From a virus: DNA of 45,659 bases. Where the stretch lies: positions 1 through 45,659 of the IMG/VR virus record IMGVR_UViG_3300030616_000041. The stretch is one strand, 5' to 3'. The notes below the pieces were generated by a model, which saw only the letters and a program-made list of their open reading frames with translations, was not told the DNA's origin and made no database searches. Of this stretch, positions 12,044 to 38,382 are shown piece after piece; position 1 is the stretch's first letter; the number at the start of each line of letters is the position of its first letter. Made by a program: the position numbers and the translations under genes.

Positions 12044-12496
12044 TTCTTCCCCCTTTTCTTCCGGCTGATATACCGGAACCGGATGATTAATGTAAAGCAT
12101 AATCTGGTCTTGCATTTTCAAGGCCGTATCCAGCAAATGGATTATCTCTTCTGTTTCTTCGGCATCTTGCACGCCGATGCATCCCTTGGTTCCATCGTTG
12201 CGTTCGTCATAATGGATAAGGTAATGCGTGAACGTTCCATCCTCTCTGTAAAGCCGGATCTTGCGGCCGCTTTCCCCATCATACCGCATGCCGGATTCAA
12301 TGGTATCAACCGAAGGATCAATGATTTTCCATATACCGGCATCGATGGCGTTTAAAAGGTGGAGTTCGTCATTATCATAATTCAGGCTTCCGGTCCTGGC
12401 AAGGGCGGAATTTAATTCCTTGCCATCTTCGCATAAATTCAATAACCCGAAGCCGCGTTCATTGTACTGGAAGTTTAAGCTAATCTCTTTTTTCAT
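11849..12496 (-). CDS. Endolysin-like protein with fused holin-like C-terminus (215 aa)
   Basis: The N-terminal part ends with FTHYLIHYDERND then GTKGCIGVQD. A His followed some 15 residues later by a Gly-Cys-Ile-Gly segment (Cys106) resembles the catalytic His...GC pattern of L,D-transpeptidase-like cell-wall enzymes found in some phage endolysins. The last 64 residues are holin-like and have their own start at 12043. The ATG is preceded by TTGGAGATGGCCAA. The gene begins inside the end of the GT2 gene (17-nt overlap). The enzymatic call is moderate; the holin part is more convincing. Confidence 0.6.
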   Translation of the reverse strand: MKKEISLNFQYNERGFGLLNLCEDGKELNSALARTGSLNYDNDELHLLNAIDAGIWKIIDPSVDTIESGMRYDGESGRKIRLYREDGTFTHYLIHYDERNDGTKGCIGVQDAEETEEIIHLLDTALKMQDQIMLYINHPVPVYQPEEKGEEMADYKPSVSVRKGAVEAGKVAAAIAAICALVGVDLDADQIAAISIIPGLVAGAIRGLSNWWKNR

Positions 12497-13160
12497 TTGG
12501 CCATCTCCAATGGTGAAAGATCCGTTTGCGGTCAGCCTTTGGATCGGGATAGACATAAATCCCCGGCCCCATAACGTGCCGCTTTGCTTTTCCCTGTTTG
12601 TGCAATTCGCCGTATCTTCGGGAAAAGTCCGTATCATCCCCGCCATATTTTCCGCAAAACTTCGGGTCGTATCCTTTCAATTCATGGAATACGCTGGCCC
12701 GAATTGCGAAGGTGTTATAATGGATATTCCAATCCGCCGCGTTTTTCTTTTTACCGTATTCGTCCAGAACCTTTTCATCCAGGACCAGGCCCCCGCGTTC
12801 ATCCAGAACCCCAAGCCGCCGCGGGAACATCATTTTATCGCCATCAAATTTCCGGACCGCGTTAATTGCTTCTTCGCTAAAGAAATGATCAATGTCGGTC
12901 ATAAGCAGAAATTCGCCCTTGGCCATTAACGCACCCCGGTTCCGGGCGCAGGGTTGTGTCCACGGCCTTTTATCCTTTGTTCGAACTATCATTAATGGAA
13001 AGTCAATGTTTTCTGGAATAGGGATTTCTGGATCCGAACCATCATCCACCAGGATAAATTCAACATCCGGGTATTTTGGAAGGAATCGGTTATAATAAGC
13101 CATTTCGCGCTTTACTACTTCGTATGATTCCAGAACCGCGATCACAACCGAAACCTTCAT
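12480..13160 (-). CDS. Glycosyltransferase family 2-type enzyme (226 aa)
   Basis: GT-A fold signatures: MKVSVVIAVLESY at the start, ILVDDGSD at residues 36-43 for nucleotide binding, MTDIDHFF at 87-94 as the metal-binding DxD motif, and KYGGDDTDFSRRY near 171-183 as the acceptor-side catalytic loop. It would transfer a sugar from a nucleotide donor in the cytoplasm. It is the last enzyme gene of the glycan module and overlaps the lysis gene. Confidence 0.85.
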   Translation of the reverse strand: MKVSVVIAVLESYEVVKREMAYYNRFLPKYPDVEFILVDDGSDPEIPIPENIDFPLMIVRTKDKRPWTQPCARNRGALMAKGEFLLMTDIDHFFSEEAINAVRKFDGDKMMFPRRLGVLDERGGLVLDEKVLDEYGKKKNAADWNIHYNTFAIRASVFHELKGYDPKFCGKYGGDDTDFSRRYGELHKQGKAKRHVMGPGIYVYPDPKADRKRIFHHWRWPNEKRD

Positions 13161-13867
13161 TTCGTACCCCCAAACATGATATTTCTACCTTTTAAAATTT
13201 CCTTTATTTCCATCATAAATTCTGGCCATGCAACCCGATTGTCAACCCGTCCAGATGGTAAACCGATCACCCAATTGTTTACATACTTGGCCATTGAATG
13301 CGCCACTCCCAGGGCTTCTTCCGTATCGATAACCGGTTCAAGATATATCCTTTGCCTAATTCCAATCATTGCAGCCGCGATAATGGCCTTCATTCTCAGA
13401 AATGGCAAATCCGCCCCAGGTTCATATTCCAAGGATTTTTTATAATCCATCCAAACAAGCGAAGTGCAAAACTCCCAATTGTTGGCTTCCATTATATCAA
13501 AATCAGCCATGGCCCGGCTTCCGCCCTTTGTCATTATCCGAAGATTCATTTTGTATTCCGCGAATATTTCCATGGCTTTTCTGGTGATGTTTTCTTCCTT
13601 TGGCATCGGCATATATGGATCCGAATTGAACCCCAAAAGGATAGGGCCTTTTTCTTTCGGATTTTCATCGCACCATTTCCGGATTCTTGCCAGCGTATTA
13701 TTGCCATGGTTCGCGCCGCTGAAATTAAACCGCCGCTTCTCATCCTGGCAGTAAATACAACCGATGGAGCAATAATGGTATAACTCGCAGATAAAGCCAT
13801 CCGCGGCCCCGGGTTTCGATTCGGCCCAACGCATGGCCCGGCTGTTTGGTTTAACCACGCTTCCCAT
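13157..13867 (-). CDS. Radical SAM protein, spore-photoproduct-lyase-like (236 aa)
   Basis: CSIGCIYC (Cys33, Cys37, Cys40) is the CX3CX2C motif that holds the radical-generating 4Fe-4S cluster. The surrounding pattern, including LLGFNSDPYMPMP and LRIMTKGGSR, resembles the SPL-like radical SAM family seen in many bacteria and phages. It lies inside the glycan module, overlapping its neighbours, so it could modify a sugar, a protein or DNA. I chose the ATG at 13867 because the conserved part begins shortly after it; 18 more codons are open upstream. Confidence 0.8.
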   Translation of the reverse strand: MGSVVKPNSRAMRWAESKPGAADGFICELYHYCSIGCIYCQDEKRRFNFSGANHGNNTLARIRKWCDENPKEKGPILLGFNSDPYMPMPKEENITRKAMEIFAEYKMNLRIMTKGGSRAMADFDIMEANNWEFCTSLVWMDYKKSLEYEPGADLPFLRMKAIIAAAMIGIRQRIYLEPVIDTEEALGVAHSMAKYVNNWVIGLPSGRVDNRVAWPEFMMEIKEILKGRNIMFGGTK

Positions 13868-14690
13868 ATACCCCGCGCCTTCCATGAATGAATTCTGGCA
13901 TGTAAACCTTAACATCCGCATCCATTTTTACCGGCTTGCCTTGATGAACAATTCCGCTTCTGCAGCGTTTGGCGAACATGGCGAAATGGTAAATGCCATC
14001 GTTATAATGCCGAAGCCCCAGGGGAACTTTGCCGCGGGCATGCCGCCCATCATTCCATGGATCGAACCAAAACCCCTTATGCGGCCCGCAACCACGCAGC
14101 ATAAGCCCGATATGCTTTTCATCAAGTTTCTTTCGGCATATGGTACAATAGGCATTGTTTTTCCTGGTCACTTCAACCGGCCGCGCTTCCACAACGCTTT
14201 CCATTGTCACATCATAAGCATTAAAGCATTTCAGGGAACAAAACATATTATGATGGCCATCAACATAGGTTTTTGTTTGGGAGCATGTGCAAACGTAATC
14301 CAGGGCAAACCGGATAAATTTGGCGGATCCGTATATCATCCGGCCATGGAAGTTCTGGTTTTGCTTGGCTATTGCTTCGGATTCAAAGATAAAAGCCTGG
14401 TCATGTTTCAATTCTGCAATCCGGTCAAAGGCTTTAATGTCCTTGCAGATTATATCATCATGCATGAAAAGGACATTTTCACCATCCCAAATGTTCTTTA
14501 TGTAATGGTCGTATTTGGCGAATTCAAGCCCGGCAATCGGCAAAGCATAGCTGTCCAGCCCAATATCTTCCGGGATTTTGTCTTTGGCGTTAAAGCTTGT
14601 TAGGAAGGTTACAGGATATTTGGAGTTGATTTGCTTTAATTGTTCGATTAATTCCTTTTCGAAATACCAACCGGCAACGCATATTTTCAA
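13851..14690 (-). CDS. Glycosyltransferase-like protein with inserted Cys clusters (279 aa)
   Basis: The N-terminal half looks like a GT-A fold: MKICVAGWYFEKELI, a central VLFMHDDI at residues 73-80 as a metal-binding DD motif. The middle contains two zinc-like clusters: CTCSQ with CSLKC, and CTICRKK with a later Cys, probably an HNH-like or treble-clef insertion. The C-terminus has GFWFDPWNDGRHARG, which resembles HNH homing-type or wHTH segments of phage genes. It may be a fusion of a transferase with a zinc-binding domain. Function is uncertain, but it is embedded in the glycan operon. Confidence 0.6.
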   Translation of the reverse strand: MKICVAGWYFEKELIEQLKQINSKYPVTFLTSFNAKDKIPEDIGLDSYALPIAGLEFAKYDHYIKNIWDGENVLFMHDDIICKDIKAFDRIAELKHDQAFIFESEAIAKQNQNFHGRMIYGSAKFIRFALDYVCTCSQTKTYVDGHHNMFCSLKCFNAYDVTMESVVEARPVEVTRKNNAYCTICRKKLDEKHIGLMLRGCGPHKGFWFDPWNDGRHARGKVPLGLRHYNDGIYHFAMFAKRCRSGIVHQGKPVKMDADVKVYMPEFIHGRRGVYGKRG

Positions 14691-15568
14691 AACTCAACCC
14701 CTTTCCATGGATCAAATTTAACTTTGGTTACATCTTCCTCGAAATGATTATTCATAAAATAATCGGTCAGTTCGGCATCCGATAATTTCCCAAGTTTTAC
14801 GCTATGCCGGTTTGCGTTTGCCTTGATTGCTTTTTGGTTCTTTTCCATAGCGGCCGCGTTGTTCCGAATCTTGCGGATGAATTGCTCCGGGGACCTGGCC
14901 GGATAATGGCGGAAAACAAGCTCCCTTGCCGTTGCCTCGATATGATGAATCAAAGGCCCGCGCCGCCCCCCATCTTCCCTTATGGTGTCCATGTTGGCCA
15001 TACGGGTCCTATGCGCGCCAAGTTCAAGCCAAACATCCTTTCCGTACCTATAAATAACCTTGCAACGTGAAATCTCATCCCGCGGATCGCCCGGCGCAAG
15101 GAAATGGCGGATTCTCTTTGTAGGATTCGGCCCCCGCTTTTCGTCCCGGCTCGTGCAAATCATGGTTCGCATGCCGGTCCACCAGAAATCAATCGGGGAA
15201 CCCCTCAACAAATCCCCAAGCGCCATGGTCGGACAAGTCCATAATTCATCCGCATCGAACGGTTGAATCATCATCCGGAATTCGGATTTGTGGTTTCCGG
15301 CGCATTTCTCATATGCCATTTTTGCCATGCCGTTAAACTTGATCGCCTGGAAATACCCGAATTGCCGTTCATCGATTATGGTATAATCAACATTTTGTGC
15401 GCTGAATCGCTTTCGGTAATATTCCAGAATATCGCGGGATCCATCCTCGCTCATTATATCGGATATAATCAAGCCATCAAGCTTATTGTTTAGGCAATTT
15501 TCAAGCTGGTATTGCAGAAAGTCGGCCTCATCCTTCATCAAGCAAATACCGTAAACGTATGTTCTCAA
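14687..15568 (-). CDS. Glycosyltransferase, GT2/GT92-like (293 aa)
   Basis: The start MRTYVYGICLMKDEADFL followed by LIISDIMSEDGSRDIL and IQPFDADELW (DADE at residues 105-108) is the pattern of GT2- or GT92-like enzymes: a 'MKDE' opening, a substrate-binding SEDGS and a DxD metal site. Overlaps its neighbours by 4 nt on both sides, so it is co-translated. It would act in the cytoplasm on a nucleotide-sugar donor. The acceptor cannot be read from the sequence. Confidence 0.8.
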   Translation of the reverse strand: MRTYVYGICLMKDEADFLQYQLENCLNNKLDGLIISDIMSEDGSRDILEYYRKRFSAQNVDYTIIDERQFGYFQAIKFNGMAKMAYEKCAGNHKSEFRMMIQPFDADELWTCPTMALGDLLRGSPIDFWWTGMRTMICTSRDEKRGPNPTKRIRHFLAPGDPRDEISRCKVIYRYGKDVWLELGAHRTRMANMDTIREDGGRRGPLIHHIEATARELVFRHYPARSPEQFIRKIRNNAAAMEKNQKAIKANANRHSVKLGKLSDAELTDYFMNNHFEEDVTKVKFDPWKGVEF

Positions 15569-16119
15569 AGAAGCCCCTTTCCCATAAGTCCGATATAATA
15601 CTTTTCCATATCGCCGTTGTGGTTTCCGGTTTTCCTTTGATCGTCACAATAATGATGCTTTTCTTTTTTGCTGAAATGTGAAAACCCATAAAGCGAATTC
15701 ACATCCAGGCCGCCGGTTTCCTTGTAAAACCAATAAAGAAAAGCAAATCCGGATGATGGGGATTGGATAAGCTTCCAGGCTTGATCGTGAATCTTCCCTG
15801 GTTGAAAGATTGCGCCGTAATAATTGGCCATTGCGCCGTTTATGCTTCCATAATGCGCCCGCCATTTTTCGGTGTCAACCGGCAAAGGGCAATAAACCTC
15901 TTTGAATACTCCGGGATTCATGGTATAAACCGTATCGCTCCAAAAGGTGCATACCCAGGCATCCACCTTAATTCCGTAATCAACCGAATAATCCAGGGAA
16001 AAGTTATTAAAACGAACAACAATATCGCGGGAATCGATTTCGCGGCCGCGGCCCCGGCCTAATTCGCATGGTCCGTTTCCAATAATGGCGTATGATTTGC
16101 CTTTAAAAAAGCTTTTCAT
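15565..16119 (-). CDS. GT29 sialyltransferase-like glycosyltransferase (184 aa)
   Basis: The sialylmotif L pattern is visible: SYAIIGNGPCELGRGRG at residues 9-25, then EIDSRDIVVRFNN and later DYGIKVDAW. Motif S appears at 119-147 (SPSSGFAFLYW then NSLYGFSHF), motif III as HHYCDD at 155-160, and motif VS as HNGDME, an HX4E pair at His167 and Glu172. These are the four hallmarks of glycosyltransferase family 29, which uses CMP-activated acidic sugars. Eukaryotic members are best known; bacterial ones are rarer. AAAGGGCGAAG precedes the ATG at 16119. The sugar donor is not known. Confidence 0.8.
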   Translation of the reverse strand: MKSFFKGKSYAIIGNGPCELGRGRGREIDSRDIVVRFNNFSLDYSVDYGIKVDAWVCTFWSDTVYTMNPGVFKEVYCPLPVDTEKWRAHYGSINGAMANYYGAIFQPGKIHDQAWKLIQSPSSGFAFLYWFYKETGGLDVNSLYGFSHFSKKEKHHYCDDQRKTGNHNGDMEKYYIGLMGKGLL

Positions 16120-16639
16120 CTTCGCCCTTTTTTGCAATCCATACCCGGTTATCAAGCCTTCCGAATTCGCCGAAGCTGTCATTTACCGCCCGCCTAACTT
16201 CCGGCCAGCCCTGGCCATAGTCATGGCCGCTTATGTATCCGCCCGGCTTTACCTTTGGATACCAAACCTTTATATCGGCCCTAACCGAACCATAAGAATG
16301 ATCCGCATCGATATAAACCAGATCAAAAAAATTATCCTTAAAAAGCTGAAACGCAACCAAGGAAGGAAGGCGAATCAAACAGGTTTTCGGAAATGCCACG
16401 GCCAGCCGGTAAGCCCGAAAAGCTGTTTCATCCCATTGCGCCCTTGCTTTATCGGCTTGCTGCCGGTCGCAACTTTCACCCTGGCCAAGATCCGAATATG
16501 GCATATAAGGATCCACCAGGAAAAAGCGTTCTACCCCGGGGGCCTCTCTTAAAATCTGGCCAGCATGATTTCCGCCCAAAACCCCAACCTCGCAAATAAC
16601 CTTTAAATCCTTTTCCCGGATGAATTCTTTTATAAGCAT
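16103..16639 (-). CDS. Class I SAM-dependent methyltransferase (178 aa)
   Basis: VICEVGVLGGNHAGQIL (residues 14-30) is the S-adenosylmethionine-binding motif I; FFLVDPYMPY, DLVYIDADHSYGSV and KPGGYISGHDY give motifs II, IV and V of the Methyltransf_24-like family. Such enzymes often methylate sugars or sugar-linked groups in glycan clusters. The ATG follows AAGGCTGATAAGGA and overlaps the aminotransferase stop by 10 nt; the 3' end overlaps the GT29-like gene. Confidence 0.8.
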   Translation of the reverse strand: MLIKEFIREKDLKVICEVGVLGGNHAGQILREAPGVERFFLVDPYMPYSDLGQGESCDRQQADKARAQWDETAFRAYRLAVAFPKTCLIRLPSLVAFQLFKDNFFDLVYIDADHSYGSVRADIKVWYPKVKPGGYISGHDYGQGWPEVRRAVNDSFGEFGRLDNRVWIAKKGEDEKLF

Positions 16640-17736
16640 TCCTTATCAGCCTTTCGAATGGTTTCGATAACGTGAATAAGATCAAAATCGATTATTGAAT
16701 GAAGCGGAATGGTCAGGATTTGATCCTTGATTTGATTTGTTTTTTGAAGTCCGGAAGATCGGAACCGCTGGAAAGCAGTAAAAGTATTGCAGGGGATGTA
16801 ATTAACCCCGGTTCCTATTCCAGCCCCCTTTAAATAATCCATTGCCTTGCGCCGGTTATCACACAACAAAACGTAAATAAAAGGGGATGTGTTATTCCAA
16901 TCGGCCGGAATAACCTTAAAATGATCAAGGTTCTCGAATGCCTTATCATAAGCCAAACAGATTTCGCGCCGCGCCGCAATGAAATCATCCACCTTTTTAA
17001 GTTGCTGCAAACCAACGGCCGCATTTACATTCGGCATATGATACCGGTATCCTTCCCCATATATATCATAATACCATCCATTGCCCCGGTCCTTGGCTGC
17101 ATACCGGTCAATACCAAGCATCCGCGTCCGTTTCAAGGTGTTTGACATACCGCAAAAATCATATGGGAAAACAACGCCGCCGCCTTCAATGCATGTTATC
17201 ATTTTGATTGGGTCGAACGAATAACAAACCGCATTCCCGAAGGTATTTATATTTTCGCCTTTCCAGGTTGAACCGAAAGCATGGGCCGCATCCTGAACAA
17301 TCTTGATTCCATGCCCGGCCAATGCAGCTATCTTGTCCAGGTCGCAAGCATTCCCGCGGAAATGAACCGGCATGATTGCGGCCGTTTTCTTTGTGATAAG
17401 CCTTTCCACATCTTCGCAATCCATATTTAAATCTTCGCCAACATCACAAAAGACAGGTTCCGCACCGGTCATTGTGATTGCCCTAATGCTGGCCGCGAAG
17501 GTCAACGCCGGTACAATAACCTCATGCCCTGGCCCGATATTCAACGCCCGAAGCGCCAAATGCAAAGCGGAAGTTCCGGTATTAACCGCCACGAAGTTTT
17601 CCGCTTTTAAATACTCCATGCATTGATCTTCAAATTCGGCCGTTTTGTTTCCCTGCCCAAGCCATCCAATTTCAAAAATGTTCCTTATGGCCTGTATCTC
17701 TTCATCCCCAACCATCGGTTTTGATACTGGAATCAT
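16630..17736 (-). CDS. DegT/DnrJ/EryC1/StrS-family sugar aminotransferase (368 aa)
   Basis: The start IPVSKPMVGDEE, GTSALHLALRAL at 54-65, FHxxG-like HFRGNACD at 125-132, QDAAHAFGS with Asp149, and SFDPIKMITCIEGGG with the pyridoxal-phosphate lysine Lys178 are all family landmarks. The length of 368 aa is normal. The enzyme aminates a nucleotide-linked keto-sugar, so the phage probably makes or alters an amino-sugar donor. The dehydratase that would provide the keto-sugar is not in the window and may come from the host. Confidence 0.9.
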   Translation of the reverse strand: MIPVSKPMVGDEEIQAIRNIFEIGWLGQGNKTAEFEDQCMEYLKAENFVAVNTGTSALHLALRALNIGPGHEVIVPALTFAASIRAITMTGAEPVFCDVGEDLNMDCEDVERLITKKTAAIMPVHFRGNACDLDKIAALAGHGIKIVQDAAHAFGSTWKGENINTFGNAVCYSFDPIKMITCIEGGGVVFPYDFCGMSNTLKRTRMLGIDRYAAKDRGNGWYYDIYGEGYRYHMPNVNAAVGLQQLKKVDDFIAARREICLAYDKAFENLDHFKVIPADWNNTSPFIYVLLCDNRRKAMDYLKGAGIGTGVNYIPCNTFTAFQRFRSSGLQKTNQIKDQILTIPLHSIIDFDLIHVIETIRKADKECL

Positions 17737-17752
17737 TATGGGCCTCGCCTTT

Positions 17753-18151
17753 CTAAGTAATGGCTAATAGTTGCCGCCCGCAGTATGGACAGAACGTAAA
17801 GTACTTTACAAAAAGGTTAGCGTTTATTTTATCTCCACAATGCGCGCATGATTGTTTTTTGGGCGGCCCATCCACCCCTGCCGCTTTTAGAGCTTTGGCA
17901 AGATCGTCTCTTGAAATGAGAGCATATCCAAGGGCTTTTTGCCCAACAAAACCACCTGTCGCTCTATCCAAAAAATGTTTCCATACCTTGTCGGCCAGAC
18001 TTTGATCGTTAAGCTCTTTCTCCATGTATGTTATTGCTCTTTCTATATCAATAGAAGAAATGCAGCCTCCCGAATTTTTTGCATCGCGATTAATACTCTC
18101 AATCCATTCACGGATTACACTTTTCTGTTTGTCCGTAAATCCATTTTCCAT
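17753..18151 (-). CDS. Hypothetical protein with C-terminal zinc ribbon (132 aa)
   Basis: The N-terminal 80 residues are helical (FTDKQKSVIREWIESINRD, then ITYMEKELNDQSLADKVWKHF). The C-terminus holds CAHCGDKI and CPYCGRQLL, a classic CxxCG...CxxCG zinc ribbon. I chose the ATG at 18151 because GGCGGGGAAGA precedes it; the reading frame upstream overlaps the large glycosyltransferase gene. It is more AT-rich than the flanking genes and is probably a later insertion into the glycan operon. Confidence 0.65.
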   Translation of the reverse strand: MENGFTDKQKSVIREWIESINRDAKNSGGCISSIDIERAITYMEKELNDQSLADKVWKHFLDRATGGFVGQKALGYALISRDDLAKALKAAGVDGPPKKQSCAHCGDKINANLFVKYFTFCPYCGRQLLAIT

Positions 18152-18179
18152 TCTTCCCCGCCTTTCTCTTCCATTATAT

Positions 18180-20459: not shown

Positions 20460-20491
20460 TGATCCCCGCTTGAATCAATTAATATGAAGGG

Positions 20492-20842: not shown

Positions 20843-20867
20843 TTCCCCCGCCTTTCATTTGGTTTAA

Positions 20868-20873
20868 TTATAA
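20868..20873 (-). promoter_or_regulatory. Possible -10 box before the glycan module
   Basis: On the minus strand the 102-bp gap between 20945 and 20842 contains TATAAT within a long A/T-rich tract, about 25 bp before the ATG. No convincing -35 box stands at 16-18 nt, so this is a weak candidate only. Confidence 0.3.
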
Positions 20874-20944
20874 TGCAAAATATATGCTTTTATTTAATGT
20901 TTAGCAAAGAATTTTGATTTCCTGAAGTGCTTTTGCTTTTAGCC

Positions 20945-29399: not shown

Positions 29400-29427
29400 G
29401 GGGGCCTTCCGGTTAAGGAAAGCCCCC
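29400..29427 (-). promoter_or_regulatory. Intergenic hairpin after the tail tube gene
   Basis: An 11-bp stem (GGGGGCTTTCC with GGAAGGCCCCC, one G-U pair) and loop TTAACC. No T-run follows, so it is more likely an RNA processing or stability element than a terminator. Related hairpins follow the two decoration genes. Confidence 0.6.
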
Positions 29428-29436
29428 AATTTGAAA

Positions 29437-30531
29437 TTAAGCAGAAATGCTGCTTATGCTGCTGGAGCTATCCGAAGCACTTGAGGAACTCCGGGATAAT
29501 GAACTGGAACTGGAGCTGGTATAGCTCGCGGATTCGGAACTATTCGAATCGCTGCTATCCGAAGCAACGCTGGAAGAATAGCTTGATTCGTTGCCATTGT
29601 AAATCCGCAAATCCAGTTCGTTGTCCTCAATAACGCCGGTTATTTCCCAGGTCAAAACGCCGTTATTGTCCCCGGGTTTCACGTTATCGATAACGCATTT
29701 TGAACTGAAAATCTGCAAATCCGGATATTCGAAAATCCGGCCCCATTTCAAATCCAGGTTCCCGCGGGTTCCGGCTTCAATGTCCGGATGCGGAATCAAG
29801 GAATTGTCGGCCTTCTGGAAAACCGTTGCATCGAAACGAACCATGCGGTTTGTCATTTCGGTTTCCCCGGCCCCATACTTGGCAGTCGGATCCGGTCGGC
29901 TTGTTACTTCCTGGCCGCCGTTAATGGTGATTTTAACAAGCTTGTATTCCTTGCCGTTAATCGTTGCTTCACCATTTCGGAAAGCGGGCGCAATGGCGTT
30001 TTCCCGATATGATTCCACATCCGGGAAGGTGGAAACCGAAGGCCGCGCAACATATTGGCCTTTGCCGTTAAAATTCATCTTGGCCGCCATGCCGGTTTCG
30101 ATCTCGATCGTCCAGTCGAACATCAGGTTTCCGATTTTCTCAAGCAACGCCTTGTTTGTGCCGGTTGTTCCATCATATCCCCAAAGCGTTCCGGCATCCG
30201 CTATATCGTTGCGAAGGCGAAGGATGATATATGGATCGCTCAAGATACGCCGGAACCCGGCGCAACGCGCAACCCGGACCATGGAAGGCTGAACCGAAGG
30301 CCCGCGGGCGTAAAGCTTAAATGGAATCATCACTTCCGGTGCCCAAATACCGATTGTCGGCCGGTTATTCGAAAACCGCCCGTTCCCGCGTTCATCGGCT
30401 TCCGGGTTCGAATCAACGGTTATGGTTACAGGTTCGGAAGTATCCAGAAAGTCATTCGCGCCCAATGCGCTGGATGGCGAATCGATTTCTTCCTGGCATT
30501 CGAACAATACAAGTTTTTTCTTTTTGACCAT
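29437..30531 (-). CDS. Major tail tube protein with Ser-rich C-terminal tail (364 aa)
   Basis: Residues 1-310 form a beta-rich tail-tube-type fold (IWAPEVMIPFKLYARG, RFDATVFQKADN, CVIDNVKPGDNNGVLTWEITG). The last 53 residues are almost only Ser, with Asp, Glu and a few Ala, Asn, Arg. Such a tail would project from every ring of the tube. AAGGGGGCCGAA precedes the ATG. Position before the G/GT chaperones matches lambda gene V. The call is by context and fold impression. Confidence 0.7.
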   Translation of the reverse strand: MVKKKKLVLFECQEEIDSPSSALGANDFLDTSEPVTITVDSNPEADERGNGRFSNNRPTIGIWAPEVMIPFKLYARGPSVQPSMVRVARCAGFRRILSDPYIILRLRNDIADAGTLWGYDGTTGTNKALLEKIGNLMFDWTIEIETGMAAKMNFNGKGQYVARPSVSTFPDVESYRENAIAPAFRNGEATINGKEYKLVKITINGGQEVTSRPDPTAKYGAGETEMTNRMVRFDATVFQKADNSLIPHPDIEAGTRGNLDLKWGRIFEYPDLQIFSSKCVIDNVKPGDNNGVLTWEITGVIEDNELDLRIYNGNESSYSSSVASDSSDSNSSESASYTSSSSSSLSRSSSSASDSSSSISSISA

Positions 30532-30546
30532 TTCGGCCCCCTTGGT

Positions 30547-32214
30547 TTACCGTATTCGATACGGATTGGTTATATCTATCTTCGTTGAAACTAAAAGCTT
30601 GCTCCAAATTCCAATAAGAATCGCATTTGCGGAAGTGTATAAATCATACGTTCCATGCATCAACTCGCATTTTTCAGCCAAGCCGCCCATGTTAAAATCC
30701 TGGTCGATTGCCTTGGCCATATCCGCCATTACGTTCCGCAAATAATTTGCCATTTCCGTATCCGCATCAGCCGTTGCAACGCCCTCAACTCGATCGCACC
30801 AGGAAGGAAACCACCAAAGATCGTATTCCAACCGTTCAATATTCTGGTAATTCCCAGCGGTCGGTTCATCCTCTAAAATAAGAATAAATGGGAACCGGCC
30901 GTTAATCTGCAGAAAGCGCCTTTCTTCCTCAACGGCTGAAACCGTGTTTTTGTAGCCCGCGCCGCCAATTGCTGCCAGGGCGGTTTTTAGGCTTGCGGTT
31001 ATTTGGGCCTGTATGCAATCGGTCGGATCAACTATGGGGCCAACGCTCAAGCTTGAAACGCTAACGCTTTGGCTGCTGCTTACGGATGCGCTCAAACTCG
31101 ATTCGCTCGAACTTTCGGAAGATTCGCTGCTTGGGCTTAAATTGCTTGATTCCGAAGATTCGCTGGATGTTGATTCGCTGGAATTACTAGATTGCGATGA
31201 ACTCGAACCCGTATCCCATGTGCCGCAACTAAGAAAAGAATCAGGGTCATTCTGATTGCTATATTCTGTTGTAATCCAGCTCGCGGTAAGCGTATTCGTA
31301 TTAACCCTATATTCATCAATCTTCCCGTCTAAACTTGCAGATGTATATCCAATATAGGAATCCGCAGAAGATAAATTAGGAAGCACCGCCGGTATTGTGC
31401 CAGAATCCTCATCAGCCATTTGTACTCCATTAATATAAATTGGAGCCTTGAGTAAATTTGTTGCAAGCGAACCATTATATGGGATAGTTAAATGAAATAA
31501 TGATCCAGCGGATATATAGGAATTAATAGACTTAACTTTTGTTAAGTTCGTTGCAGCCGAAAAAGCAAATCTCAAAGAATTGGAAGTATCAAAATTTATT
31601 TGAATTCTGTTTATTCCATCAATTCTTAACTTTGGATTATCTCCTTGGTTTAAAACATCCTGTGAAAGCCACATGCTATATGTGATGTTTTCAGCCCCAT
31701 TTTCTTCCACAACATTTCCATGATTTACACTTGAATTGTTCCCATTAAAATCAAAAGCATTTCCTATTTTCCCGTTTGCACCATAAGAAACATTTGCAGC
31801 CGTTCCAATATAGTTTCCAGTTGAATCAGATGGGTTTCCAGATGCTTCTTGGAAATGATTTACTAAAGCATACCCTCCATTTGTCCAAACCCCAGTATCG
31901 TTTGCACGGCTTCCATCCTCAACGCGAATGTAAAATGTATTGTCGGTTGCGCTGGACAATAAAGGAACCCGAATCCATAATTCAAGCAGTTCTGAACCTT
32001 CGTTGAAATTTACTATTTCCCTGTCGTATTCGGTATCTTCATCCCCATTCCAAACCTTGATATAACTTGAACCGCCCGCCGCTGTTACCGCCGCCCAAAA
32101 ATCGGAAGGGATGTCCGTAACTCTGGAATCCACCAGAACGGGGAAATGTGAATGCGGCCCTCCTGTTACAGAACTGGAAGGCACGGTCACAAGAAATTTA
32201 CCAATTACAGCCAT
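30547..32214 (-). CDS. Tail-terminator-like protein fused to LamG-type lectin domain via Ser-rich linker (555 aa)
   Basis: Residues 1-120 resemble a DUF2341-type beta domain (FPVLVDSRVTDIPSDFW, DREIVNFNEGSELLELWIRV). Residues 125-325 form a LamG/concanavalin-like domain (YGANGKIGNAFDFNGNNSSV, then DGKIDEYRVNTNTLTASWI). Residues about 337-395 are a Ser/Glu-rich linker. The C-terminal part, from about residue 400, is a paralogue of the C-terminus of the 32499-33653 product and resembles gpU-like tail terminators (YDLWWFPSWCD, GGLAEKCELM). The middle is encoded by markedly AT-richer DNA. Confidence 0.65.
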   Translation of the reverse strand: MAVIGKFLVTVPSSSVTGGPHSHFPVLVDSRVTDIPSDFWAAVTAAGGSSYIKVWNGDEDTEYDREIVNFNEGSELLELWIRVPLLSSATDNTFYIRVEDGSRANDTGVWTNGGYALVNHFQEASGNPSDSTGNYIGTAANVSYGANGKIGNAFDFNGNNSSVNHGNVVEENGAENITYSMWLSQDVLNQGDNPKLRIDGINRIQINFDTSNSLRFAFSAATNLTKVKSINSYISAGSLFHLTIPYNGSLATNLLKAPIYINGVQMADEDSGTIPAVLPNLSSADSYIGYTSASLDGKIDEYRVNTNTLTASWITTEYSNQNDPDSFLSCGTWDTGSSSSQSSNSSESTSSESSESSNLSPSSESSESSSESSLSASVSSSQSVSVSSLSVGPIVDPTDCIQAQITASLKTALAAIGGAGYKNTVSAVEEERRFLQINGRFPFILILEDEPTAGNYQNIERLEYDLWWFPSWCDRVEGVATADADTEMANYLRNVMADMAKAIDQDFNMGGLAEKCELMHGTYDLYTSANAILIGIWSKLLVSTKIDITNPYRIR

Positions 32215-32216
32215 TT

Positions 32217-32474
32217 TTAATAATTCACTATATCGCTTGCCGCGCTATTCAATGCAACAACGGATGGTTGTGCTGCCGTTATCGCATCAAGAATTCCCTG
32301 AACCTGGGCGCGATCATCATCCGTAAAATCTTCGGTTGCCATTGCCGCCTTTAATGCGGTTATGCTCGATTTAACGGATGATAAAGTTGAAATTGAACTC
32401 ACTATTGATTGACAATAGCTTTTGAAATTCGTTGCGAAGCGATCGCGTTTTTCGTCTTTTAAAAATGTTGCCAT
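32217..32474 (-). CDS. Small helical protein between the terminator-like paralogues (85 aa)
   Basis: Rich in Ala, Ser and Asp, likely helical (MATFLKDEKRDRFATNFKSY, DDRAQVQGILDAITAA). No family recognised. Lies 2 bp before the start of the 555-aa gene, so the two are co-translated. Possibly a structural adaptor. Confidence 0.55.
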   Translation of the reverse strand: MATFLKDEKRDRFATNFKSYCQSIVSSISTLSSVKSSITALKAAMATEDFTDDDRAQVQGILDAITAAQPSVVALNSAASDIVNY

Positions 32475-32498
32475 AAAGCCCCCTTGTTTTTTGTGTTT

Positions 32499-33653
32499 TT
32501 ATCTCATCCCGTATGGATTTAATTGGTCAATATCGGTTGTTACAATCACCCTGCACCATGTACCGAAAAGCGTTAAACTCTCATCTTCGTATATTTCCGG
32601 GTTCCCGGGTCGAACTTCCAAATGCTCCGCCAGCCCTTCCAAGGTTTCATCTTGCGCCAGGCATTTGGCAATATCCGCGTTTACATTCCGGACCATATAA
32701 GCGGATTCTGTGTTGGCATCGGCCGCGGTCCCGGTCAAGGTATCATCGTAGTTTATCAGCGTCCAAATGATGTATTCCAATTCCCGCACAAATAAATTTT
32801 CCTGGTTAATCGGATCGTTCTCCAGAATCAAAAGCAATGGCCAGCGGTTATTCACTTGAACCATCTGGCGGGATTCCTCGATCGCGCCGGGCGTGAAGCT
32901 ATACCCGCCCGCAATCGATATTTCCGCAAGCTTGGCTTTTATCTTGGCCGTTATTTGGGCCTTAATACAATCATCGGACAAATAAAGGCTGCTGCTCGAA
33001 TAACTCCGAGTACTGGAATAGGATCCCGAACTGGATGATGTGCTGTCTTTGCTAACGCTTGTTGAATCCGAAGATATGGATCCGCTGGATGATGAATTGC
33101 TGGATACGCTCAAAGAACTGGATTCCGAAGAATTTGACGATACCGAATCCGAAGAAGAAGAATCGCTCGATTGTGATGATTCCGAAGATGCGCTGGAATT
33201 TGACGAACTCGAACCGCTTGATGATGAATTGCTCGAAGTGCTTGATTGGCTCGATGCGGAAGATTCGCTGGAATTGGATGATACCGAACTGCTGCTTTGT
33301 GAAGAATTGGAAGATGAACTTCCGGAAGATTCCGAACTGCTGGATCCCGAACTTTCAGAACTTCCCGAAGATGATGAAAAACTCGAACCGCTCGAACTTG
33401 AATTGCTCGAACTGGATCCGGATGATACCGATTCGCTCGACAAACTGCTTTTGCTTTGGCTGCTGGATTCGGATGATGAACTCAAAGAAGAAATGGATTC
33501 GCTGGAATCCGAAGATGTGCTGGAATCGGAAGATGCACTTGATTCCGATATGGAAGAACTGGATACGGCTTCCCATCCACCCTGCCAAGCTCCCTGATTA
33601 AGAGAGTCAGCGGGTAGCGGCCCACCTTGCCATGCCCCTTGGTTCAACGCCAT
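32499..33653 (-). CDS. Tail-terminator-like protein with long Ser-rich N-terminal segment (384 aa)
   Basis: The N-terminus carries two copies of a short motif (LNQGAWQGG, at residues 3 and 18). Residues about 30-225 are Ser with Glu, Asp, Asn and Gly. The C-terminal 155 residues (CIKAQITAKIKAKLAEI, LLLILENDPINQENLF, LEGLAEHLEVR) are a paralogue of the C-terminus of the 555-aa protein and fit a gpU-type tail terminator. A terminator ring would place the Ser-rich arms at the head-tail junction. Confidence 0.65.
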   Translation of the reverse strand: MALNQGAWQGGPLPADSLNQGAWQGGWEAVSSSSISESSASSDSSTSSDSSESISSLSSSSESSSQSKSSLSSESVSSGSSSSNSSSSGSSFSSSSGSSESSGSSSSESSGSSSSNSSQSSSSVSSNSSESSASSQSSTSSNSSSSGSSSSNSSASSESSQSSDSSSSDSVSSNSSESSSLSVSSNSSSSGSISSDSTSVSKDSTSSSSGSYSSTRSYSSSSLYLSDDCIKAQITAKIKAKLAEISIAGGYSFTPGAIEESRQMVQVNNRWPLLLILENDPINQENLFVRELEYIIWTLINYDDTLTGTAADANTESAYMVRNVNADIAKCLAQDETLEGLAEHLEVRPGNPEIYEDESLTLFGTWCRVIVTTDIDQLNPYGMR

Positions 33654-34672
33654 TAGCCAACCCCCAACTCAATAGACATACCATTGTCCAGATTAGGTGA
33701 CGTAGCCTGTAGTGAGTGGTCAACTCCTGGATTTGTAAACAACGGATTACCTGTGCTTACAAGGTAATCCTGAAATACGGTTGTCACATCCACGTTCACC
33801 CACATATCGGTACATCGCGCATCATCCCCATGGTTGTTCCAAAAGAAGTTAACGTCGGTTTGAGTATCCCAATCAAATCCGCTTGTCGTTGAGCCTTCTA
33901 TAATGTTATTAATGCAAATCGCACACTCTGCTCCTACTCCATACACATCTGTAGAGTTGCCATAAAAAGTATTGTTGATTATTTTGACGTCATCCTCATT
34001 TGTGAGATAAATGGCAATAGCAGCACAAGCATCAAAAATATTTCCAAATATCACCTCACCGTCACCCGGTATCATGGCAAAATCATCCGTAAAATCATGG
34101 ATATAGCAAAACAAACAAGCGGTATTAACACCGAAAACAATGCCTCTTGCATTAGTTGACGTAACCTCGCAATTAATTAATGCACCCGATGCGCCAATAA
34201 TTGCCGTATAATTATTTGACGAAGCCGCTGCGTCATTTTCTATTTTACAATTTTCCACAACGCAATTATTCCCACATTGCAGCACGTAATTAACATCACC
34301 TTGAAAGGAGATGTTTCGGATTATATTGTAATTAGATGTTCTGATTTGAAAAGTTGCCGTATCAAAAAACGGCCTATTAGCAGAATCCCTTGCCCAATCA
34401 GAATAAACGATTGCTGCACCAACGTTTGTAGTTGTGGCTTTTACTCCAATCAACGCAATAGGGGCCGTTTCTGTTCCATTTACTGCGCTCCAATCAATAC
34501 TTGAATCAAGCGTATAATCTCCCTCCATAATAAATATCACATCACCAGCAGCCAACCCACCACCTTCCATGAAGGTTTCAAAGGCTGGTTCGTCAAAAGC
34601 GTTATCCCAGTCGTTGCCATTCTTGAGTCCTGCGCCGCCAGCCTTCAAATGGTAGTACGCGTTGATAGCCAT
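33653..34672 (-). CDS. Right-handed beta-helix protein (339 aa)
   Basis: Repeated short strands with regular Asn, Cys and Ile positions (NNCVVENCKIENDAA, GALINCEVTSTNARG, VKIINNTFYGN, AICINNIIEGS) are typical of a right-handed parallel beta-helix as in pectate-lyase-like fibres. It could bind or cleave polysaccharide or serve as a rigid spike. No catalytic residues can be assigned. The start overlaps the upstream stop (TAATG), and the stop overlaps the next start. Confidence 0.7.
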   Translation of the reverse strand: MAINAYYHLKAGGAGLKNGNDWDNAFDEPAFETFMEGGGLAAGDVIFIMEGDYTLDSSIDWSAVNGTETAPIALIGVKATTTNVGAAIVYSDWARDSANRPFFDTATFQIRTSNYNIIRNISFQGDVNYVLQCGNNCVVENCKIENDAAASSNNYTAIIGASGALINCEVTSTNARGIVFGVNTACLFCYIHDFTDDFAMIPGDGEVIFGNIFDACAAIAIYLTNEDDVKIINNTFYGNSTDVYGVGAECAICINNIIEGSTTSGFDWDTQTDVNFFWNNHGDDARCTDMWVNVDVTTVFQDYLVSTGNPLFTNPGVDHSLQATSPNLDNGMSIELGVG

Positions 34673-35184
34673 TACAGCCCCCTTTCCGTAACATCAGCCA
34701 AGGCTGCCGCTTTTACTTTTTCAGGGTCGGCAAGAAAAGCATCTATCTTCCGTTGTTCAATCACCTTCGGGTCGTTGGTAATAAGAATCGGTTCGTCAAG
34801 CTGCTCTGCTGGTAGGTCAGCGGGTTTTATGCTCAACCCCAATTCAACGTATCTTGCTTTATCCCTTGGCTCAACCGGATTCCCGCTTTTGTCCACTATC
34901 CAATACTGCCCGTCTTTCTGCGCCTTAATGTGCTTGTTCGTGCCTCTGGTTACTGTTGCGCCTGCCGGGATGTTGCAGTTATCAAGGTTACAGTCGATAA
35001 ATTCAACGTCCTCGATATTGGCAGGGAATACGTCTGTGTATGGCTCATCCTGATAAAAGCACGCTCCAACAATTTTTGCACCATTAAAAACCTTTGGGTC
35101 TGCCGTTGTGAAAGTCTGCCGTTTCCATGAATGATGGCTCCAATCCCCTGGTTTCATTGTTCCAATATCAATTTGTTCTGGCAT
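34672..35184 (-). CDS. Pentapeptide-repeat-like protein (170 aa)
   Basis: The segment FNGAKIVGACFYQ and the later VEFIDCNLDNCNIP have the A(D/N)Lxx-type spacing of pentapeptide repeats, though only a few turns. The C-terminal half is Pro- and Lys-rich (PADLPAEQLDEP, RKIDAFLADPEKVKAAAL), resembling the ends of phage tail-fibre assembly proteins. Directly upstream of the beta-helix gene, so it may be its partner or capping factor. Confidence 0.55.
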   Translation of the reverse strand: MPEQIDIGTMKPGDWSHHSWKRQTFTTADPKVFNGAKIVGACFYQDEPYTDVFPANIEDVEFIDCNLDNCNIPAGATVTRGTNKHIKAQKDGQYWIVDKSGNPVEPRDKARYVELGLSIKPADLPAEQLDEPILITNDPKVIEQRKIDAFLADPEKVKAAALADVTERGL

Positions 35185-35206
35185 AATATCCCCCGTTTCA
35201 TATTAA

Positions 35207-35392
35207 TCATTTCAGCCATTCCCAGGTTGTAACATTTTCCTGCTTAACTTCCCTAACCTTTGGTTGCCATTCCCTTTTCTTTTCGCTTTCACCGATAAAA
35301 AACCAAACAGATGCGCCCGATAAAATAATGGCCGATATTGCCGCAGCAATCAGCCATTTTATTTCGTCCCGCCAATCAAACCATAATTTCAT
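35207..35392 (-). CDS. Small membrane protein (61 aa)
   Basis: One transmembrane helix at about residues 13-33 (WLIAAAISAIILSGASVWFF), then a charged C-terminus (ESEKKREWQPKVREVKQE). ATG overlaps the upstream stop as ATGA. Could be a lysis accessory or a membrane-anchored assembly factor; neither is proved. Confidence 0.6.
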   Translation of the reverse strand: MKLWFDWRDEIKWLIAAAISAIILSGASVWFFIGESEKKREWQPKVREVKQENVTTWEWLK

Positions 35393-36129
35393 TGCATTTT
35401 GCCCTTATTCACTTGCGCCGTTGCCCGGTCAACATCCTTTTGCAACCGCCGCATGGCCCCGGCTTCGCGGTTCATCCAGCCCTGGATAAATTTGAATTGT
35501 GGCCTTATATTGATTGCTTTAACGCCGATGAATAAAAGCGCCCTGCCGTAATCACCGGTTTCGGCAGTTTTCTTGTCAAACCATCGCATAACACCACCGG
35601 CCCGGATACTAAAAACGTCCCGTTCCTTGCTTATCCGCCGCAATAATTTTCCGCTATGGAAATAGCCTTCTTTATCGGATTTTAATGTATAACCCAAATT
35701 CACCAAATTTCTATAAATAGGAATTACAAGGTGTTTTCCATGGCCAGATATATGGCCGCCATGCTCCAAAAATTTTAAAATTTTATGAATTGGATGATCG
35801 CCAGCCATTCCCATCGTTAATGTCAAATTGTCAATTTTTGCCGGTCCCCATGGTTTTATAAATCCTTTAAATTGCGCTCTTACTTGTGGGGTCCATATCC
35901 TGTATCCTCCACCCGCATGCCGCCCGCCCCATAACTCTTTCCTGGCCAGCCGTTCCCTGAATACGCCCTGCCGCCCCACTTTCCCGGGCTTTCCGATATA
36001 CCTATTGCGTTCCCGGCCGAAGCCTCTACGCAAATTCCGCAAATATACCTTTGGAGCATAAGCCATTAACCGCGCTAACTCATATTGGCCGGTCATGGTT
36101 CCTTCCATGCTCATTAGCCGTTCGCTCAT
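35389..36129 (-). CDS. Minor tail/head-tail completion protein, gpZ-like (246 aa)
   Basis: A basic N-terminus (LRNLRRGFGRERNRYIG) and a central LEHGGHISGHGKHLVIPIYRNL segment are similar to the region of gpZ/HK97-gp10-like proteins containing an E-x-G loop. Position after the gpFII-like gene and before tail terminators matches lambda Z. I chose the ATG at 36129, which overlaps the previous stop as ATGA, rather than an in-frame codon seven residues upstream. Confidence 0.65.
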   Translation of the reverse strand: MSERLMSMEGTMTGQYELARLMAYAPKVYLRNLRRGFGRERNRYIGKPGKVGRQGVFRERLARKELWGGRHAGGGYRIWTPQVRAQFKGFIKPWGPAKIDNLTLTMGMAGDHPIHKILKFLEHGGHISGHGKHLVIPIYRNLVNLGYTLKSDKEGYFHSGKLLRRISKERDVFSIRAGGVMRWFDKKTAETGDYGRALLFIGVKAINIRPQFKFIQGWMNREAGAMRRLQKDVDRATAQVNKGKMQ

Positions 36130-36476
36130 TCGACAAGCCCCAATCTCCAAACCGCATATTCCGGGTTTGCGCTCATTACCGTTAAGGTCTTATTATGGGT
36201 ATCCCCGGGATTGATTTTCATTGTTACCGTATCCTTGCCGATTGTCACATTGGCCACACCATCGGCCGCCTTTTGGGAAACCAAAAGTTCAATAGCCATT
36301 CGTGCCGGCCGAAAGTTCGCCGGCCCAAGATTAACCGAAGCGTTTTTTGTCTTGTAGATTATCGCAAGGATGGTTTTTGATGTGCCGCCATATGGATTAT
36401 AAACAACGCTTTCCCCGAATTCATCCAGGGAAATATCCGCGAAATCCTCTTTTGCATTGTCTGTATCCCATGCCAT
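36126..36476 (-). CDS. Head-tail connector, gpFII-like (116 aa)
   Basis: The opening DEFGESVVYNPYGG with SKTILAIIYKTK and the later VTIGKDTVTMKINPG, VWRLGLVE fit the small beta-rich gpFII-type connector that closes the neck. Length matches (lambda FII is about 117 aa). Position between decoration proteins and gpZ-like gene agrees. The call is by pattern and order only. Confidence 0.65.
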   Translation of the reverse strand: MAWDTDNAKEDFADISLDEFGESVVYNPYGGTSKTILAIIYKTKNASVNLGPANFRPARMAIELLVSQKAADGVANVTIGKDTVTMKINPGDTHNKTLTVMSANPEYAVWRLGLVE

Positions 36477-36492
36477 TCATTTTCGCCAATCA

Positions 36493-36735
36493 TTATGGAA
36501 TGATTTTATCGCCATACCGGAAAAGAACTTGGACCACAATAACAATTGCAGTATATACCGCAACCTGTTTAATCTGCATTTTATGCAACATTTCTTTCAT
36601 AATTTCAATCGCTGTTTTTAATTCCGGCAAACATAATTCGCATTGTTTCAACCGCTCATCATGCCGCGCAATTGTTTGTTCATCATCGTTAAGCCGCTGC
36701 CCGAATCCATTTAGTTGTTTTATTATTTCGTCCAT
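36493..36735 (-). CDS. Coiled-coil membrane-anchored protein (80 aa)
   Basis: Residues 5-50 are a likely coiled coil (QLNGFGQRLNDDEQTIARHD, ELKTAIEIMKEML); residues 55-72 (VAVYTAIVIVVQVLF) are a membrane helix. The layout resembles XhlA-type holin accessory proteins. The ATG has no ribosome site and stands 8-10 nt after a terminator-like hairpin and T-rich run (36747-36770). Confidence 0.6.
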   Translation of the reverse strand: MDEIIKQLNGFGQRLNDDEQTIARHDERLKQCELCLPELKTAIEIMKEMLHKMQIKQVAVYTAIVIVVQVLFRYGDKIIP

Positions 36736-36736
36736 A

Positions 36737-36770
36737 ATTTAAAAGCGGGGGCCTGGTTGCCCAAGCCCCC
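36737..36770 (-). terminator. Terminator-like hairpin between head and tail genes
   Basis: Minus-strand arms GGGGGCTTGG and CCAGGCCCCC (10 bp, one G-U) with a GCAA tetraloop, followed by GCTTTTAAATT. The T-run is short, so termination is likely partial. It separates the decoration genes from the connector and tail genes. Confidence 0.6.
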
Positions 36771-36776
36771 AATCCT

Positions 36777-37721
36777 TTAAGCTTCGTGGCTTTCAGAACT
36801 TGCCGAACTGTCGGATTCGCTCGATTCGCTCGATTCGCTGATCGAACTGCTCGAATCGCTATTGGATGAAATCGAAAGCGAACTATTTGAACTATCGCTG
36901 TTCGATGAAATCGATTCCGAACTTTCCGAACTGCTCGAAGTCGATTCGCTCGATTCGCTCGATTCGCTCGAAGTCGAACTTTCCGAACTGCTCGAATCGC
37001 TCGATTCGCTCGATGCGCTGGAAGTCGAACTTTCAGAACTGCTCGAATCCGATTCACTCGATGCGCTCGATTCCGAACTATGCGATCCGGATTCGCTCGA
37101 ACTTGAACTGTTCGAACTGTCGCTGTTCGAAGAAACGGATTCAGAACCAGAACTCACGGAATCCGAACCGGAACTTAGCGATCTGCTCGATTGCTCCGAA
37201 AGAGAAGAAACCGATTTCGAAGTCTTGCTTTCGCTCAAACTCGACAAACTCGAAACGGATACGCTCGTAGAAACGGATGAACTGGAAATGCTTCCGCTTG
37301 AACTGGAAACGGAAACCGAAATCGAATCGGCCGCAGCCTTCCGGCCATTCAAAAAAAGGTGAACGTGATTATCGGTCGCATCCGCGGCCAAGCTACATTC
37401 ACCAATATAAAAATCGCCGGTTTTTGCTTCGGACCTTGCAACGGCTACGTTGTGACCAACCGCCCAATAAACATCATCGTCCGTATTGAATACCGATGTA
37501 GAACGTTTTTGAACACTTATTTCGCCGCGAACCAGGTTTTCGCCGCTGCTGCCATTGGCGATCGATTCCCTGGCCATGTGCGCCGTATAAAGCCCAGAAG
37601 CGTTTGCACGCTGCCAGATTTCATTTGGGGCAAGGGCGGATCCGCTGTTGTTCAAAACCGTAACTTGCTCATGTTCATCAATCGAACCAAGCATGTAAGA
37701 TTCTGCTAATGGATCAGCCAT
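36777..37721 (-). CDS. Decoration protein 2, DUF2190-like, with very long Ser-rich tail (314 aa)
   Basis: Residues 1-130 are a DUF2190-type capsid-cement domain, about 65% alike by eye to its neighbour (shared ANASGLY, GENLVRGEISV, FNTDDDVYW, VARSEAKTGD). Residues 133-314 are Ser alternating with Glu and Asp, with few other residues. The tail is three times longer than that of the 195-aa copy, consistent with repeat expansion: the DNA is a tandem array of AGCGAATCG-like units. AAAGGGTTTTGGC precedes the ATG. Confidence 0.75.
   Translation of the reverse strand: MADPLAESYMLGSIDEHEQVTVLNNSGSALAPNEIWQRANASGLYTAHMARESIANGSSGENLVRGEISVQKRSTSVFNTDDDVYWAVGHNVAVARSEAKTGDFYIGECSLAADATDNHVHLFLNGRKAAADSISVSVSSSSGSISSSSVSTSVSVSSLSSLSESKTSKSVSSLSEQSSRSLSSGSDSVSSGSESVSSNSDSSNSSSSSESGSHSSESSASSESDSSSSESSTSSASSESSDSSSSESSTSSESSESSESTSSSSESSESISSNSDSSNSSLSISSNSDSSSSISESSESSESDSSASSESHEA
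36783..37330. repeat. Low-complexity tandem DNA encoding the Ser-rich tail
   Basis: Forward-strand units such as GATTCGCTCGATTCGCTC recur many times. Slippage or recombination among them would change tail length in steps of three residues without breaking the frame. Confidence 0.75.
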
Positions 37722-37749
37722 GCCAAAACCCTTTCTTTGATAAAAGTCT

Positions 37750-37776
37750 GTGGGGGGCCGGTTAAGGCCGCCCCAC
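37750..37776 (-). promoter_or_regulatory. Intergenic hairpin between the two decoration genes
   Basis: GTGGGGCGGCC pairs with GGCCCCCCAC around loop TTAACC, with one bulged C, followed by AGACTTTTATC. Loop TTAACC is the same as in the hairpin at 29400-29427. Confidence 0.55.
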
Positions 37777-37794
37777 CTTGTTTATTTCCAATGT

Positions 37795-38382
37795 TTAGGC
37801 ATTGGAAGAAATGGAATTGGATGAACTGGAAACAGAATCACTATTCGAACTAAGCGATTCGCTCGAAGCTTCGGAAAGCGAAGAAATCGATTTCGAAGTC
37901 TTGCTTTCGCTCGAACTCGAACTTGTGCTTGTCGATGTACTGCTGCTGGAAATGCTGGTCGAAATGGAACTGGATACCGAAATGGTATCAGCCGCATCCT
38001 TCCGGGCATTCAAAAACAGCCGCACCCGCGCATCACCGGAAGCTGCCACTTTGGAGCATTCCCCAAGGTAACGATCGCCGGTTTTTGCTTCGGACCTGGC
38101 TACCGCATCGTTATGACCAACGCGCCAGTAAACATCATCGTCCGTATTGAAGGTGGATCCGGATTTCTTGGCCACGCTGATTTCTCCGCGAACCAAGTTT
38201 TCGCCGGTTGCGTTTGCCGCGATTGTTTCGCGCGCAACATGGGCAACATACAAACCGGATGCATTCGCCCGGAACCAAACCTCATTGGGGGCAAGGGCCG
38301 CCCCGCTGTTGTTTGCTACCGAAACCTGTTCTTGCTGATCCATGGCTCCGGCAAGATAGGCTTCATTCAAAGGATCTGCCAT
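37795..38382 (-). CDS. Decoration protein 1, DUF2190-like, with short Ser-rich tail (195 aa)
   Basis: The N-terminal 130 residues resemble DUF2190 proteins that cement phage capsids (NNSGAALAPNEVWFRANASG, then HNDAVARSEAKTGDRYLG). Residues 134-195 are Ser-rich with Thr, Asn and Glu. The gene directly follows the capsid gene and has a strong ribosome site (CGGAGGTTTTAAAA). It is a tandem paralogue of the 314-aa decoration protein. Confidence 0.8.
   Translation of the reverse strand: MADPLNEAYLAGAMDQQEQVSVANNSGAALAPNEVWFRANASGLYVAHVARETIAANATGENLVRGEISVAKKSGSTFNTDDDVYWRVGHNDAVARSEAKTGDRYLGECSKVAASGDARVRLFLNARKDAADTISVSSSISTSISSSSTSTSTSSSSSESKTSKSISSLSEASSESLSSNSDSVSSSSNSISSNA

Follow-up and report, generated by a model that had tools for sequence, protein, structure and literature searches.

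Why would a phage place long serine (Ser)-rich segments on five of its virion proteins and, in the same series of genes, carry a double glycosyltransferase with a set of further glycan genes? This question is raised by the IMG/VR virus record IMGVR_UViG_3300030616_000041, whose whole stretch of 45,659 nucleotides (45.7 kb) was analysed here and is termed the window. A sequence-only reading had proposed that the phage glycosylates its own virion, and our analysis partly supports this: it is likely that the phage encodes O-glycosylation of Ser-rich arms on the capsid and tail of its own virion, with a 759-aa protein that joins a GT9-like glycosyltransferase (GT) to a GT4 one as the key enzyme. 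The support is strong and indirect, consisting of a TibC-like fold of the GT9-like half and a two-way co-occurrence of enzyme and Ser-rich proteins across unrelated virions, beyond that of generic GTs.

Serine-rich segments on the virion proteins

The genes of the window run on the minus strand in the order terminase, portal, protease-major capsid protein fusion, two decoration-like proteins, connector genes, terminator-like and tube-like proteins, tape measure, and tail tip, followed by the glycan gene set and then early-type genes. The glycan genes share the strand and series of the structural genes, i.e., they belong to the phage late region. No near DNA match to the window was found in cultured phages, and searches for viral relatives of its decoration domain and of its major capsid protein returned none.

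As listed in Table 1, the predicted Ser-rich segments were borne out in all five virion genes, with lengths of 57-211 residues and Ser contents of 49-64%. Their description as tails holds for the three that form C-terminal arms with nothing beyond, on both decoration-like proteins and the tube-like protein, and fails for the two terminator-like proteins, in which they are internal linkers before the terminator-like domain. All six Ser codons are present in each of the five segments and the DNA is repetitive only locally, indicating that selection maintains the protein sequence. Codon slippage or repeat expansion as the origin of the tracts was ruled out by this six-codon usage, and tandem DNA repeats account for no more than parts of the segment at 36.8-37.2 kb.

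The proposed identity of both decoration proteins is supported by matches to PF09956 (3e-5 for the N-terminal part of 36777-37721 and 6.5e-7 for 37795-38382) and to phrog_122. The tube and terminator identities are putative, being drawn only from gene order and from homologues in the phage G013 (L014), with no family match. The C-terminal domain of the terminator-like 32499-33653 has a G013 homologue at 43% identity, and its N-terminal part, ahead of the Ser segment, is a 30-aa repeat stretch in which 'LNQGAWQGG' occurs twice (33570-33653). Short aromatic-acidic repeats were also noticed between the Ser tracts of other poly-Ser phage proteins, namely VxFEDTGAV (L003/L012) and NPGTWTDR (L229). 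The N-terminal part of 30547-32214 is a LamG lectin-like domain (PF13385, 1.3e-11), and this lectin-linker-terminator gene adjoins a second terminator-like paralogue that lacks the lectin.

Co-occurrence of the enzyme and serine-rich proteins

Full-length relatives of the GT9-GT4 protein, with 51-57% identity, occur in viral contigs. A profile of the GT9-like family identified 71 viral loci, many having the GT9-like half alone, and no member across 84,980 species genomes of bacteria and archaea, while a tblastn search of INPHARED with three family members gave no match in 50,697 phage records. Among the genomes and phage records searched, the GT9-GT4 gene represents a phage-only family.

Ser-rich open reading frames (ORFs) were defined by a Ser share of 50% or more over 40 residues, with both TCN and AGY among the Ser codons so that antisense artefacts were excluded; the first-pass count of the 71 loci also admitted any such ORF that was the longest frame at its place. 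Genuine Ser-rich ORFs lay within the 10-kb flanks of the enzyme at 31 of the 71 loci, and at 12 of 27 loci not used before that came from an independent second search, the enzyme search patterns favouring members with conserved motifs. Such ORFs were seen at 4 of 120 control loci drawn by an 8xTCN pattern (one of the four having mixed codons) and, as a weak match, at 1 of 25 loci found via a PAPS-reductase-like protein, the product of an unrelated window gene. The poly-TCN pattern had been tried as a poly-Ser finder, matched nearly always the antisense of other genes, and was reused as this control, a mixed TCN/AGY pattern taking its place. Genuine Ser-rich ORFs are rare in viral contigs (0.10 and 0.27 per 100 kb in the two control sets) and reached 4.0 per 100 kb around the enzyme, about 15-40 fold denser, the controls being matched for collection and not for habitat or host. 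After clustering at 70% enzyme identity, poly-Ser was found in 18 of 27 clusters; among double-GT records of at least 30 kb, it was found in 11 of 13, and the two negatives are one virus, one of whose records was read whole. Viral contigs are mostly fragments, so that absence is weak evidence.

In the reverse direction, the mixed-codon pattern, which takes no account of the enzyme, returned 120 viral loci, and genuine poly-Ser proteins were present at 110 of them. The test set comprised 41 poly-Ser records of at least 30 kb, none already in the enzyme set, and 39 control records. The GT9-like family (E below 1e-57) was detected in 13/41 versus 0/39, with one weak control match (p 8e-5; 4e-4 once near-copies were merged). 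Generic GT2 genes were equally frequent in the two sets (9/41 and 9/39), and GT4 genes differed little (12/41 and 7/39). General carriage of GTs was thus rejected as the cause of the association, and the poly-Ser link is specific to the GT9-like family.

The virion proteins of G013 are homologous to those of the window, mostly at about 40-53% identity, and its decoration, tube, and terminator homologues have Ser-rich segments at corresponding places, including an arm at the same place in the homologue of 37795-38382 and a Ser-rich C-terminus (aa 311-351) in that of the tube-like 29437-30531. The double transferase (57%) is likewise present in G013, as are the GT2 and 13851-type genes, and the trait has therefore outlived extensive sequence change. 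Between the other double-GT phages and the window, the only virion-protein similarities are a weak match of the tape measure and a weak match in the major capsid region; these phages carry poly-Ser on other, unrelated proteins. Since only G013 has window-related virion proteins, the enzyme-arm link is not one of simple descent. In a tree of 85 GT9-like domains, the poly-Ser label was spread across both main halves with 8 changes versus 26 in shuffles, part of this clustering being near-copies and rows L323-L335 having been chosen for poly-Ser.

Fold of the GT9-like half and the candidate acceptor

The predicted structure of the GT9-like half (predicted local distance difference test, pLDDT, 82; predicted template-modelling score, pTM, 0.83) was compared with the PDB by Foldseek, and the clear matches were GT9 heptosyltransferases and TibC. 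TibC gave the highest template-modelling (TM) scores (0.50-0.53) and the lowest root-mean-square deviation (5.2-6.7 Å, versus 8.9-12 Å for the others), with E-values of 2e-7 to 1e-5. A model of the full 759-aa protein was poor in its N-terminal half, and its matches to SdgB and Gtf3 reflected the generic GT-B fold and were not used as evidence. G14-D15, the G-D dyad of GT9 enzymes, and K192 are invariant in 85 relatives, as are four cysteines (Cys) save for one alignment gap; by analogy with WaaC, the dyad is expected to hold the catalytic Asp.

In TibC, four Cys hold an iron in a finger that is needed for activity, and the enzyme glycosylates Ser of autotransporters (PMC4358343). Like the TibC/AAH autotransporter heptosyltransferases (eLife 2014, PMC4358343), the phage enzyme has a GT-B catalytic domain of GT9 type, and it may likewise be a dedicated cognate enzyme that hyperglycosylates many Ser in a repetitive acceptor. 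Its four conserved Cys may correspond to the iron-binding four in the C-lobe of TibC. The proposed acceptor here is the Ser-rich arms of the virion, where that of TibC/AAH is the beta-helix of an autotransporter. The phage enzyme differs in being phage-encoded and fused to GT4, in starting directly with the GT-B N-lobe without the N-terminal beta-barrel (about 97 residues) of TibC, and in a sequence similarity below detection; the Aah/TibC NCBIfam gave no match to the 759-aa protein. Because of this undetectable homology, the missing barrel, and a different Cys spacing, the modelled half is assigned a TibC-like fold and not membership of the TibC group.

Two other systems offer further parallels. 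The Ser-rich repeat adhesin systems (GtfA/B, Gtf3, GtfC) and SdgA/B also combine Ser-rich acceptors, GT4-type enzymes, and sequential transfer; there, GT4 primes cell-wall adhesins, whereas the GT9-like half is the proposed priming enzyme for the virions. Some of their structures were among the Foldseek matches of the GT4 half, reflecting the common GT-B fold. For mycobacteriophages, Freeman et al. (2023) reported virion glycosylation; the capsid and tail-tube subunits there reportedly bear glycans at their C-termini, attached by phage-coded transferases. The window similarly has transferase genes in the late region and candidate acceptor segments on virion proteins that co-occur with the transferase; glycosylation was demonstrated chemically in the mycobacteriophages and is predicted here, and the window enzyme has no match in any cultured phage record.

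Several points weigh against the arms as acceptor. The GT9 structures 3tov and 1psw had lower Foldseek E-values than TibC, the fold that matches TibC is also common to lipopolysaccharide (LPS) heptosyltransferases, and a profile search of PDB chains listed 3tov and 1psw and did not reach TibC at E<=1. The Cys spacing is C-x5-C-x18-C-x13-C in the phage enzyme versus C-x2-C-x15-C-x11-C in TibC. The GT29, DegT, and 14687 genes are not recurrent among relatives. A derived clade of 27 enzyme rows is without poly-Ser in the DNA examined, so that the GT9-like family can act on something else, and 28/41 poly-Ser records have no such enzyme, many being fragments, some having other GTs, and some being T4-like with short tails. 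The check for co-occurrence in other phages suggested by the sequence-only reading thus came out mixed, and co-occurrence by itself does not establish the arms as substrate. The simplest reading of the tree is an old enzyme-arm association that was lost or redirected in the poly-Ser-free clade; a different acceptor in the clade of L048, L054, L060, and L071 is possible. In these records and their kin, a recurrent HAD-like gene (LDFDCTFTSDIEFW) lies just downstream of the GT9-like gene, with other sugar-type genes nearby.

This clade would also suit glycan genes that remodel the host envelope (LPS or capsule) and exclude other phages, the arms being unrelated flexible spacers, the more so as GT9 enzymes are mostly LPS heptosyltransferases and envelope-modifying GTs are common in phages. 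We nevertheless consider such remodelling unlikely in view of the two-way poly-Ser association, which generic GT2 genes do not show, the lack of profile matches in the bacterial and archaeal genomes scanned, against 71 viral loci, and the position of the protein-acting TibC as best structural match by TM-score. Moreover, no transmembrane-like segment was found in any window transferase, unlike a Gtr-type serotype conversion cassette with its flippase and membrane-bound transferase.

It is quite unlikely that the arms are disordered acidic spacers, unmodified or phosphorylated, with the enzyme modifying another phage product. Long Ser tracts between domains are indeed known from polysaccharide-binding bacterial enzymes (PMC6821194), and this explanation would accommodate the two linker segments, one of them beside a lectin-like domain, as well as the poly-Ser records that lack the enzyme. 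However, no dedicated glycosyltransferase is known with the linkers of such polysaccharide-degrading enzymes, three of the phage segments are terminal arms that connect to nothing, and poly-Ser genes are markedly concentrated around the enzyme. Hypermodification of phage DNA bases by the transferases is very improbable: viruses are known to encode GTs that act on DNA (Pyle et al., 2024, as cited in PMC12619734), but pathways of this kind usually include thymidylate-synthase-type genes, and 27/29 enzyme-positive records, the window among them, lack these (fragments possible), and the TibC-like fold and the poly-Ser link would be left unexplained. All three alternatives explain less than glycosylation of the arms.

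Accompanying glycan genes and the proposed pathway

Table 1. Ser-rich segments and glycan genes of the window
Feature	Position	Strand	Remarks
Ser-rich C-terminal arm of decoration-like protein 37795-38382	37798..38004	-	aa ~127-195, Ser 37/69
Ser-rich C-terminal arm of decoration-like protein 36777-37721	36780..37349	-	aa ~125-314, Ser 114/190 (60%)
Ser-rich linker in 384-aa terminator-like protein 32499-33653	32958..33590	-	aa ~22-232, Ser 134/211
Ser-rich linker between LamG and terminator-like domains in 30547-32214	31021..31245	-	aa ~324-398, Ser 37/75
Ser-rich C-terminus of tail-tube-like protein 29437-30531	29440..29610	-	last 57 aa, Ser 32/57
GT9-like (TibC-like fold, four conserved Cys) + GT4 double glycosyltransferase, 759 aa	18180..20459	-	proposed Ser-priming and extending enzyme
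DegT/PseC-like sugar aminotransferase	16630..17736	-	PF01041 1.1e-89; TIGR03588 2.4e-81, below its cut-off
Methyltransferase (Methyltransf_24)	16103..16639	-	relatives near double GT in ten other records
GT29 (sialyltransferase-like) protein	15565..16182	-	1.5e-10; not recurrent in relatives
Weakly GT2-like protein	14687..15568	-	below Pfam cut-off; not recurrent
Partner with conserved 'FMHDD' motif, probable GT-A enzyme	13851..14690	-	no family match; relatives in five other double-GT records
GT2 glycosyltransferase	12480..13160	-	relatives in six other enzyme-positive records

The enzyme set first read from the sequence stood for the double GT and for the DegT, Methyltransf_24, GT29, and 12480 GT2 genes, and is weaker for the genes at 14687 and 13851-14690, the 'FMHDD' motif of the latter being conserved in its relatives. 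In L046, L056, and L082, GT9-like and GT4 are separate adjacent genes, which suggests two sequential steps. DegT relatives were found, weakly, in two other records; given this and the non-recurrent GT29-like and 14687 genes, the glycan may differ in its outer part from phage to phage. The series also includes a radical-SAM protein (phrog_13321, PA0069-like; 13157-13921), not found near the enzyme in related records. The window genes that were scanned yielded neither a dehydratase or epimerase for sugar nucleotides nor a heptose pathway. With no recognisable route to sugar nucleotides in the window, host donors are assumed, and the earlier description of the system as self-contained is withdrawn.

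In the pathway that we propose, the Ser-rich arms of the capsid-decoration, tail-tube, and tail-terminator proteins would be glycosylated late in infection in the host cytosol, all steps being read as cytosolic because the transferases lack transmembrane-like segments. The GT9-like half would transfer the first sugar, from host donors, onto many serines and the fused GT4 half would add the second, after which the GT2-type enzymes, methyltransferase, aminotransferase, and GT29-like protein may build or cap the glycan. The outgoing virion would thereby bear hydrophilic glycan bristles, with shielding, for instance against antibodies or proteases, or surface binding as the conceivable benefit.

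To our knowledge, glycosylated virions have been demonstrated for few phages, and a literature search, thin on subscription papers and preprints, found no earlier report of the enzyme-arm pair. With less assurance than for the window itself, we lean towards a mobile module for virion O-glycosylation that is widespread among uncultured phages. In it, a phage-only TibC-like family would travel with Ser arms on unrelated capsid, tail, and fibre proteins, and the virions would gain a bottlebrush-like coat of glycans through a chemistry otherwise known to date from bacterial autotransporters only. If so, the phage-only enzyme family and its easily recognised acceptor would lead one to expect glycosylated virions across many uncultured phages and would be a source of compact enzymes for decorating simple Ser-rich tags. 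The proposal also provides a function hypothesis for long poly-Ser tracts left unexplained by phage annotation.

Two further kinds of poly-Ser protein were noticed among the records. In L215, L224, L228, L240, L243, and L321, long proteins belonging to a single T4-like-looking family terminate in a short run of Ser plus GGGY/GGSY and form a separate class of poly-Ser tail, with no enzyme in the records tested. The phages L211, L220, L227, L245, and L298 have at least three small unrelated proteins, each with poly-Ser at its C-terminus, including a recurrent Cys-containing protein of ~100 aa (PAYKCPFKNNAGAGI).

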